A stretch of 64,000 nt of DNA from Cecembia rubra (GTDB lineage: Bacteria; Bacteroidota; Bacteroidia; Cytophagales; Cyclobacteriaceae), in the NCBI RefSeq assembly GCF_003014575.1, contig NZ_PYGF01000001.1, forward strand, positions 248,001 through 312,000, in the 5' to 3' direction. Within the stretch, counting starts at the first letter, position 1. Every line of letters starts with the position of its first letter. Under the pieces are notes generated by a model that was given only the letters and a program-made list of their open reading frames with translations, did not search any database and was not told the origin of the DNA. The translations under genes and the position numbers were made by a program. Positions 47,836 to 50,880 of this stretch are shown in pieces.

Positions 47836-47864
47836 AAAAAAAGCAGCGTAAAGCTGCTTTTTTT
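47836..47864. terminator. Intrinsic terminator after mscL
   Basis: 12-bp stem AAAAAAAGCAGC / GCTGCTTTTTTT with a 5-base loop. It sits between convergent genes (mscL and the Spy-like gene) and can serve both strands. Confidence 0.88.
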
Positions 47865-48321
47865 AGTTTTTATTACTTTCTCCTCTGTCTCTTCCCTGTT
47901 GCATTCTGTAAACATGCCTTGTGAAATCACGGTTTGCTCCACCCAACTTTACTGCCTGTGAAGGGCTGATTACCTGAATGATCTCATTCATAAAGCGTTT
48001 TTCCCGATTTAAGAGCTTTTCCTGGAGCTCAAATCTTTTGTTGATCAGTTCTTTTGCTTTTTCATCATCTATTTCCCTTCCTGCTTGTCTGTTCAACATG
48101 GAAAGCTCCTCCATCATGGATTTTCTTTCTTCCTGATATTGATTAAAGATCGGCCAGAATTTTTCTGCCTGCGAAGCTTTAAGGTCCAATCTGTTCGTAA
48201 TAAATGCTATACGGGCTGCCTCAAATTTCTCTTGATCGTATTGCTGGTTGCCTCTTTGTGCCATGCTAAGTGAAGCAAAGCATAGGAAAAAGGCCAGGAT
48301 TAGGATTGTAAGTTTCTTCAT
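47863..48321 (-). CDS. Spy/CpxP-like periplasmic protein
   Basis: About 152 residues from ATG 48321 (MKKLTILILAFFLCFASLSMAQ); longer starts lack sense as signals. The mature part is a helical protein of the Spy/CpxP type, seen in FITNRLDLKASQAEKFWPIFNQYQEERKSMMEEL and ELQEKLLNREKRFMNEII, where the LTxxQ-like region is altered to LKASQAEKF. Such proteins are periplasmic chaperones or metal-stress sensors. It is the last of three genes (ECF sigma, small membrane protein, this), reminiscent of sigma/anti-sigma/sensor modules such as CnrYXH. Confidence 0.75.
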   Translation of the reverse strand: MKKLTILILAFFLCFASLSMAQRGNQQYDQEKFEAARIAFITNRLDLKASQAEKFWPIFNQYQEERKSMMEELSMLNRQAGREIDDEKAKELINKRFELQEKLLNREKRFMNEIIQVISPSQAVKLGGANRDFTRHVYRMQQGRDRGESNKN

Positions 48322-48331
48322 CAAAATTGAA

Positions 48332-48709
48332 TTAATACCAAATATCTTCTTCAGGATCGGTTTCAGCCCAATCAAAGCTGCCCCATTCAGTAGCGATAAT
48401 TTCATCTAATATAGAATTGGGATTGTCTGCCAGTAAAAGTATATCTTCCGCCTGCCAGTACTCAGTGTCTATGTATAAATCAATCTCCTGACTTATCATC
48501 AAGTCCATTGGATCAACCTGAGAGGTCTGGGATATAAATACCCATAATCCCAAACCCAGTATGAACACTGCTGCAGCGGCATATTTCAAAGGTTTAGAAA
48601 ACCATACGGATTTCCGGCTTTCATACCTTTCCAAAATCCTATCAGGCAATTTATCAAAATAGCCTTCAGGTACTAGGTGGATTTCTTTTTTATTCAATTT
48701 TTCCATCAT
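48332..48709 (-). CDS. Small single-pass membrane protein, candidate anti-sigma factor
   Basis: A 125-residue protein with a cytoplasmic N-terminus (about residues 1-39, EGYFDKLPDRILERYESRK), one helix (about 40-60, LKYAAAAVFILGLGLWVFIS) and an acidic periplasmic C-terminus (EDILLLADN, EEDIWY). It lies between an ECF sigma gene (34 bases upstream) and a Spy-like gene (10 bases to its start), which suggests it anchors the sigma factor at the membrane. The cytoplasmic part lacks the HxxxCxxC motif of zinc-binding anti-sigmas, so the call is from context and topology only. Confidence 0.6.
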   Translation of the reverse strand: MMEKLNKKEIHLVPEGYFDKLPDRILERYESRKSVWFSKPLKYAAAAVFILGLGLWVFISQTSQVDPMDLMISQEIDLYIDTEYWQAEDILLLADNPNSILDEIIATEWGSFDWAETDPEEDIWY

Positions 48710-48743
48710 TCTTGTTGGTTAGACAGTATAAAATCCAAATGGT

Positions 48744-49292
48744 TTATTCTGATTTGATTTCCTGTTCTATTTTTTTTGCGGCATGGTGGTAGGAAGCTTT
48801 AAGTGACCCGACGCTGGTATCCGTGATTTTGCTTATTTCCTCGTAGCTCAGGTCTTCGAAATACTTCAGGTTAAAGACCAATCTTTGCTTTTCAGGCAGG
48901 TTGAGGATTGCTTTGTGAAGTTTTTTTTCGATCATATCTCCGTCTATCAGGGGTGAACTGTCAAGATATTGTTTCATGACTTCCTCGTGGTCTTCAATCT
49001 GGAAGAAAAACCTTTTTTTCTTTTGTTGCAAAAAATTCAGGCTTTCATTGGTTGCTATCCTGTACAACCAGGTAAATAGAGAGGAATGGCCCTGAAATTT
49101 ATGGATATTCTTAAATGCTTTGATGAAAGTGATCTGGGTCAGATCATCTGCATCTTCATGGATAATGACCATTTTTCGGATGACACCATATACTTTTTTC
49201 TGAAACCTCTCCACCAAAAGCCTGAAACCCTTGTCTTTTGTGGTTGGGTCATTGATCAGTGCTAAAAGTTCCAGTTCGCTTATTGGTGTCAT
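48744..49292 (-). CDS. ECF-type RNA polymerase sigma factor
   Basis: About 182 residues from ATG 49292 (MTPISELELLALI). Region 2 is ADDLTQITFIKAFKNIHKFQG with SSLFTWLYRIATN; region 4 is LPEKQRLVFNLKYFEDLSYEEISKITDTSVGSLKASYHHAAKK. The -35-recognition helix is intact. It is the first gene of a three-gene unit with a candidate anti-sigma and a Spy/CpxP-like protein, so it probably drives an envelope-stress response and is held at the membrane until the periplasmic signal arrives. Confidence 0.93.
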   Translation of the reverse strand: MTPISELELLALINDPTTKDKGFRLLVERFQKKVYGVIRKMVIIHEDADDLTQITFIKAFKNIHKFQGHSSLFTWLYRIATNESLNFLQQKKKRFFFQIEDHEEVMKQYLDSSPLIDGDMIEKKLHKAILNLPEKQRLVFNLKYFEDLSYEEISKITDTSVGSLKASYHHAAKKIEQEIKSE

Positions 49293-49360
49293 TAAGTGTT
49301 TAGACAAGACTGGTGAGTAATGGTTTAATTCAAAAATCAGAAAAGAAATTGATGAAAAAA

Positions 49361-49381
49361 AAGCGGGCATTCAGCCCGCTT
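49361..49381 (-). terminator. Intrinsic terminator after the Usp gene
   Basis: Stem AAGCGGGC / GCCCGCTT around a 5-base loop; on the minus strand it is followed by a run of T. It overlaps the stop codon of the universal stress protein gene and separates it from the sigma operon. Confidence 0.85.
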
Positions 49382-50303: not shown

Positions 50304-50656
50304 TTTATTAATGCCTTTTGGTACTGCAAAATTAATGATAATTGGGCTGAGAAGTTGAAATTTTTAGAATATTATTTTGTGCCGTCCGTATAATTTTTTC
50401 AATAATTGATTTTTTATTCTGTTGTTTCCGATATTTTGACAAACAAATCTTTCGGCTTCGTTTTTGAATTCCCTCAAATTGTTTAACTGCTTCTCAAACC
50501 TCCATAAAATTACTGTTAGGATTATTACAACAAAATCTTTTTTGGCAAGTGGGGTATAAGCTAGTTGGAAGGTTTGAAATTCAAGGACTCCCATAAACCA
50601 TTTTATTCTCCCCAAAATGATCAACTTTTCCCTGAATAAATCCGTATATTTGCGCA
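50304..50656. other. Region upstream of the ncRNA; no convincing gene
   Basis: AT-rich stretch of about 350 bases between the Usp gene and the predicted RNA. A minus-strand frame (50364-50702) is open for 112 codons but has no recognisable domain and its start overlaps the RNA and its promoter, so it is likely spurious. A degenerate gene remnant cannot be excluded. Confidence 0.3.
50645..50652 (+). promoter_or_regulatory. Bacteroidota -7 promoter element (TATATTTG) of the ncRNA
   Basis: Exact TAnnTTTG match, identical to the dnaG element. It predicts a transcript start at about 50657-50659, precisely where the terminal stem of the RNA begins. The upstream ACTTTTC at 50624-50630 may be the -33 region. 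Confidence 0.6.
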
Positions 50657-50880
50657 AAGGCTCGGGTCGCTGACATGTTCCAACTTCACAATTAAAAAAC
50701 AATTCCGAGTGAAGCCCTTTCCAAAAACAGGCCTCATCCCTTTCTGATAACCTGTCAGTTTTGGGACCTCGTATCTTAGGATTCAGGATAACAGTGGAAG
50801 TTTGCGGTCTTCAGGCAGCTCAAATCTTGTCTATAAAGAGGTTTGGCAACAACTCTAAGGCCTGAGCCCTTTTATTTTTT
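50657..50880 (+). ncRNA. Candidate 6S-type regulatory RNA (6S-Flavo-like), about 220 nt
   Basis: A compact RNA unit with promoter and terminator. The ends pair: GGCTCGGGTC (50659-50668) with GGCCTGAGCC (50859-50868), all ten positions with two wobbles, followed by a T-rich run. A second helix joins TGTTCCAAC (50676-50684) and GTTTGGCAACA (50841-50851) with a bulge. Inside are a hairpin CTTCAC/GTGAAG (50684-50689 / 50709-50714) and a stem CCAAAA..ACAGG with CCTGT..TTTTGG (50721-50731 / 50751-50764). The rod-like, about 200-nt form fits 6S RNA, which binds RNA polymerase. It is not SRP, RNase P or tmRNA by sequence. The family is inference; the structure is directly visible. Confidence 0.55.

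Follow-up and report, generated by a model that had tools for sequence, protein, structure and literature searches.

A structured RNA of a Cyclobacteriaceae bacterium that is very probably its 6S RNA and appears to join two Rfam families of Bacteroidia

6S RNA shuts down RNA polymerase when bacterial growth stops. It is a rod with a closing stem, a central bubble, and an apical arm. Transcription of a pRNA by the polymerase, templated by the 5' strand of the bubble, opens the helix P2 and releases the 6S RNA (PMC8876501). In beta- and gamma-proteobacteria, its gene, ssrS, always lies immediately after zapA (PMC7641849). The order in E. coli is zapA, 41 nt, and ssrS, with fau as the downstream gene. 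In Bacteroides thetaiotaomicron, a 6S RNA has been detected along with two pRNA classes (PMC7366714); it may correspond to the RF01693 locus. The models closest to our subject are RF00013 (6S / SsrS), RF01685 (6S-Flavo), and RF01693, which is labelled "Bacteroidales-1, 6S-Bacteroidales RNA suggested" in Rfam.

Here, we analysed a stretch of 64,000 nucleotides (G000:C1:248001-312000), called the window below, within a genome of 4.75 Mb. A structured RNA encoded at 50657-50879 on the plus strand is confirmed, and we identify it with high confidence as the 6S RNA of this member of the Cyclobacteriaceae. Its length of ~220 nt is predicted from sequence signals, with the 5' end placed by promoter spacing and the 3' end by a U-run. 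The Bacteroidota-type promoter element TATATTTG (consensus TAnnTTTG) occupies 50645-50652 (+) and ends 4 nt ahead of the claimed RNA start, and the U-rich 3' end, the predicted terminator tail CTTTTATTTTTT, lies at 50869-50880 (+). Of 111 copies of the RNA, 92 have a T-run of at least 5 at their 3' end; such a run occurs in 351 of 2220 random windows. A preliminary description of the locus had named both a promoter element directly upstream and a T-rich end, and both are borne out.

The RNA is closed by the terminal helix P1, which pairs 50659-50668 with 50859-50868 and whose 3' strand runs directly into the U-run. The second helix, P2 (50680-50687 with 50838-50845), together with its extension, covers 50677-50687 on the 5' side, predicted to be the downstream-duplex side of the closing stem, and 50838-50850 on the 3' side. 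Between the closing stem P1/P2 and the apical arm is an unpaired central bubble of ~14-18 by 13-18 nt, with its 5' strand at 50688-50706 and its 3' strand at 50822-50837. The base of the apical arm is formed by P3a/P3b (50707-50717 with 50813-50821), followed by P4 (50725-50728 with 50800-50803) and by the two hairpins of an apical three-way junction, P5 (50737-50766, paired at 50737-50740 / 50763-50766) and P6 (50767-50787), all on the plus strand. In an alignment of 100 sequences, paired cells amounted to 97.7% in P2, 98% in P3a, and 82% in P3b, each with double changes, and to 91% in P4, the third pair of which occurs as AU, CG, GC, UA, GU, and UG. P5 is 89.5% paired with double changes, and P6 is 90.8% paired with double changes in 7/7 pairs. 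The loop motifs GGCCU and ACAGUGGAAG are near-invariant.

Folded as a single sequence, the plus strand is mildly unusual (z = -1.57, with 7/200 shuffles as good), and the thermodynamic signal is therefore not convincing alone. The comparative evidence is decisive. The DNA of the RNA is conserved in 22 of the 59 genomes searched, our own included, with identity down to ~70%, and all 22 belong to one family. Relatives carrying the core of the RNA by an exact pattern include Algoriphagus, Aquiflexum, Belliella, Cecembia, Cyclobacterium, Echinicola, Indibacter, Mariniradius, and other Cyclobacteriaceae, so the family of the window (f1) was taken as Cyclobacteriaceae. The structure tested was made by hand and consists of the P2 extension, P2, P3a, P3b, P4, P5, and P6; RNAalifold run without it mispaired the junction. 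In the alignment of the 22 copies, made by MAFFT from sequence only, 90.8% of the cells are paired, with 65 double-change cells as compared to 21 in shuffled data, and the pairing falls to 24-50% when partners are slid by 1-3 columns. The same structure gave 92.1% pairing and 297 versus 86 shuffled double changes in 50 copies fitted to the covariance model R1, and 90.5% and 719 versus 228 in 100 class-wide copies fitted to the model R2, two alignments that lean towards the structure. The two helices of the closing stem were also evaluated by comparing own with foreign partners in 68 divergent copies of <75% identity, where the strands of P1 were not aligned to each other. The own ends of P1 pair at -21.7 kcal/mol as compared to ~-10 for foreign ends (z = -26.5; 0/2000 permutations as good), and P2 likewise prefers its own partner (z = -15.6). 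The strands of the bubble show no such preference among the 68 copies (z = +0.5), and the bubble is therefore real. Thus, the 10-bp terminal pairing, the second compensating helix, and the internal hairpins put forward in the preliminary description are all present, and the covariation that it proposed looking for in relatives is found throughout. Its picture of an RNA with the size and rod shape of 6S RNA stands for the predicted size and for the succession of closing stem, bubble, and arm; the RNA is no plain rod, because in this family P4 and the hairpins P5 and P6 meet in a three-way junction at the end of the apical arm.

At the thresholds of Rfam 15, there is no real match in the window, where chance matches to eukaryotic families alone were returned, nor is the RNA itself matched in any of 20 divergent copies. 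RF01685 (gathering threshold 85 bits), RF01693 (60 bits), and RF00013 (46.4 bits) give no match either in the window or elsewhere in its genome. The relation to Rfam became visible through models built from relatives. R1, which was built from the 22 copies of the window's family alone, directly matches six RF01685 loci (G250, G277, G302, G327, G370, and G391). R2, whose training genomes contain none with an RF01685 or RF01693 match, overlaps 15 of the 16 genomic RF01685 loci in the same place and on the same strand; these loci came from an independent search, in which RF01685 matched 16 of 395 genomes. The sixteenth (L064, in G447) is matched by R2 with laxer filters, under which 12/12 fetched RF01685 loci were matched at E < 1e-6. 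RF01693 has matches in 15 of 277 genomes, plus Bacteroides ihuae among the controls, and its loci are overlapped by R2 in 7/15 cases and by the model R3 in 11/15, an R3 overlap that is not independent, since RF01685 loci and a single RF01693 locus were among the sequences used to train R3. With laxer filters, 10/10 fetched RF01693 loci were matched in place. The R2 and R3 matches coincide with those of RF01693 in the same genomes; one R2 match, L130, scores 184 bits to RF01693, and several other R2 loci have below-threshold scores to both RF01685 and RF01693 at identical coordinates.

Judged from these sequence comparisons, RF01685, RF01693, and the window RNA belong to a single family, Bacteroidia-wide and normally single-copy, because a model made from relatives outside the Rfam 6S families lands on the loci of both. 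Each of the two Bacteroidota 6S models in Rfam covers only a portion of the group, and the window RNA is therefore missed. The suggestion that RF01685 and RF00013 be searched thus had a mixed outcome, the window sequence itself giving no match and the models from its relatives landing on RF01685 and RF01693 loci, and the kinship it had proposed with 6S-Flavo, a distinct family of Bacteroidota, is established by homology via intermediates. RF01685 and the window RNA share segments around the bubble and the apical arm (CUCAAC, GUGA, AAAGCAGGC, UUAGC..UAAACUUGU, and GGAGUUU), but RF01685 is a 108-nt core model with a short apical hairpin, whereas the window RNA has a long P1 and a three-way apical junction. 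The RF01685 loci examined lie behind zapA, in contrast to the free-standing window RNA. The RF01693 loci examined are free-standing, as is the window RNA, and RF01693 has no match in the sampled Cyclobacteriaceae genomes. In the RF01685-type loci L062-L072, compared with L001, the junction of P5 and P6 is reduced to a short hairpin and the rest of the RNA is kept.

Full-length matches were obtained in 65 (R1), 127 (R2), and 147 (R3) of 395 Bacteroidia genomes, counts which are lower bounds because the filters were strict. There is nearly always one copy per genome, as each of the three models finds in the genome of the window, and all 9 genomes of its own family in the sample are positive. Two other families of the same order gave no match to R1, R2, or R3 in 7 genomes (G046, G345, G406, and G442 of f11; G048, G244, and G425 of f13), reflecting either loss or divergence past detection. 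Two genomes carry two divergent copies each (L137 and L034 at G104:C37:11959 and C93:5474; L075 and L088 at G135:C3:61113 and C7:46662); each pair may be 6S paralogues, of the kind known from Bacillus subtilis, or a sign of contamination.

The gene order around the RNA divides the family. Among the 111 loci with enough flank, 47 have zapA (PF05164) directly upstream on the same strand, as E. coli ssrS does, and nearly all of these 47 have the RNase Y gene rny (PF12072) directly downstream, a position held by fau in E. coli. No Cyclobacteriaceae copy among the 111 loci, that of the window included, has the zapA-linked position, and the ~65 nt that separate zapA from rny in the window's own genome contain no RNA. 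In the flanks searched, neither zapA nor rny adjoins the RF01693-type copies (L156-L164 and L166), so the RNA seems to have parted from the zapA operon on more than one occasion. In the Cyclobacteriaceae, it would be the RNA of this family that moved, rather than the others, because the zapA-ssrS order is shared with E. coli.

The expression signals track gene position, with an own promoter in free copies and GTTCTTT in zapA-linked ones. Of the 64 free-standing copies, 42 have a strict TANNTTTG (TAnnTTTG type) between -35 and +8 relative to the 5' end, as compared to 0 of the 47 zapA-linked copies. A GTTCTTT(A) motif is present upstream of the RNA in 32 of the 47 zapA-linked and 3 of the 64 free copies, and is often followed by a small hairpin (e.g., L044, L047, L062-L072, L172, and L201). 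GTTCTTT resembles the boxA antitermination signal, and the arrangement suggests that antitermination lets transcription of the zapA operon run on through the structured RNA.

On the combined sequence evidence, a 6S-type RNA, as first proposed in the preliminary description, is the best-supported reading, and the window RNA is in all likelihood orthologous to the other Bacteroidota 6S RNAs. It is carried by the RF01685 and RF01693 loci matched by relatives' models, by the compensatory changes, by the central bubble, and by the zapA adjacency in relatives. The architecture is that of the 6S class, with a predicted ~180-220 nt, a closing stem, a large unpaired bubble, and an apical arm, features which the window RNA shares with E. 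coli SsrS. A sub-threshold RF00013 match of 25.8 bits covers one flavobacterial copy (L063) end to end. RF00013 stays below its cut-off in all of 62 Bacteroidia genomes, and therefore no other canonical 6S RNA competes there.

Beside the 6S reading, we give a small probability to a different class-wide housekeeping RNA of Bacteroidota, for example a scaffold or a protein-binding RNA, whose relatives in Rfam would owe the name 6S to their shape alone. The apical three-way junction and the strongly conserved loops set the RNA apart from the plain rods of proteobacterial 6S RNA, and the junction and the motifs GGCCU and ACAGUGGAAG exceed what a promoter mimic needs. The bubble has no recognisable TAnnTTTG: its 3' strand contains 3.88 matches versus 3.64 in shuffles, which is not above chance, and a direct mimic of the promoter element is thus not supported. 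Rfam itself terms RF01693 6S merely "suggested". However, such an RNA would have to share with E. coli ssrS its synteny with zapA and with 6S RNA its size and an unpaired bubble separating the closing stem from the apical arm; pRNAs are moreover reported for the Bacteroides 6S RNA, and the 62 genomes searched with RF00013 leave no competitor for the 6S role. An identity as SRP RNA was rejected, as the SRP RNA is located elsewhere in the genome.

The neighbouring genes bear on a further explanation, a cis-acting element that would serve either as a 3' UTR or antisense regulator of a flippase gene or as the leader of a universal stress protein gene. The RNA is flanked by the universal stress protein gene (PF00582; 49380-50303, minus strand) and by the convergent polysaccharide flippase gene (PF01943; 50855-52342, minus strand), and its last ~25 nt (50855-50879) overlap the 3' end of the latter, here and in several relatives. 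We consider this explanation very unlikely, as both genes are on the opposite strand, the RNA persists while its neighbours differ among relatives, the folding signal is stronger on the plus strand (z = -1.57 versus -0.35), and the promoter element and the U-run fit the plus strand. The overlap itself consists of the 3' strand of P1 and the start of the U-run, and is kept in several Cyclobacteriaceae. Judged by eye, an apparent ECF-type sigma factor gene lies at 47863-49370 (minus strand), with two small genes downstream, possibly encoding an anti-sigma factor and a Spy/CpxP-like periplasmic protein. That there is no RNA and that promoter-like and complementary sequences were arranged by chance, as a single-sequence fold only modestly better than shuffled might suggest, has a negligible probability and is refuted by the massive covariation, the pairing of the P1 ends with their own partners, and the full-length R3 matches in 147 of 395 genomes.

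Read as a 6S RNA, and following the biology of that class, the window RNA would accumulate as growth slows, a stationary-phase accumulation that we infer by analogy. Its bubble and the flanking helices would mimic an open promoter and occupy the RNA polymerase carrying the housekeeping sigma factor. At outgrowth, the polymerase would use the 5' bubble strand as the template for a short pRNA that extends into P2, and this synthesis would open P2 and eject the RNA; both polymerase binding and pRNA synthesis are expected by analogy. The best-conserved part of the bubble is AACA.U, on the 5' strand adjoining P2, and this region is the putative pRNA template. For the release step, an alternative hairpin of the 3' bubble strand with the 3' strand of P2, of the E. 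coli type, is suggestive, with an own-versus-foreign z = -3.2, in which the kinship of copies is partly controlled, and 81% pairing in 50 sequences. A collapse helix of the central bubble of the B. subtilis type is unsupported in the 68 copies (z = +0.6). A candidate picked out by eye, a GACA/UGUC pseudoknot spanning P2, likewise lacks support (z = -1.2). The gene is part of a zapA-6S-rny row in other lineages, and stands elsewhere, with its own TAnnTTTG promoter, in Cyclobacteriaceae.

As far as the literature shows, three sequence-based proposals appear to be new: the joining of RF01685 and RF01693, the zapA-rny context, which Cyclobacteriaceae lack, and the three-way junction of the apical arm. 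The polymerase of Bacteroidota is unusual and reads TAnnTTTG promoters. We tentatively raise the idea, which we hold to be possible but on balance doubtful, that the 6S RNA of Bacteroidota forms a branch with a structure of its own, marked by the conserved junction and the near-invariant loops, that may engage the polymerase by contacts other than a -10-like bubble element. The conserved junction makes it testable whether the Bacteroidota 6S RNA grips the polymerase by the textbook mode. That the zapA-6S order is shared with Proteobacteria suggests that the arrangement is old. Cyclobacteriaceae lack it and have the RNA behind a promoter of its own, which amounts to a natural experiment on the wiring of 6S expression. 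By filling the gap between two Rfam families, the window RNA would make them one Bacteroidia-wide 6S family, so that annotation and RNA-seq in the class can name a general regulator.
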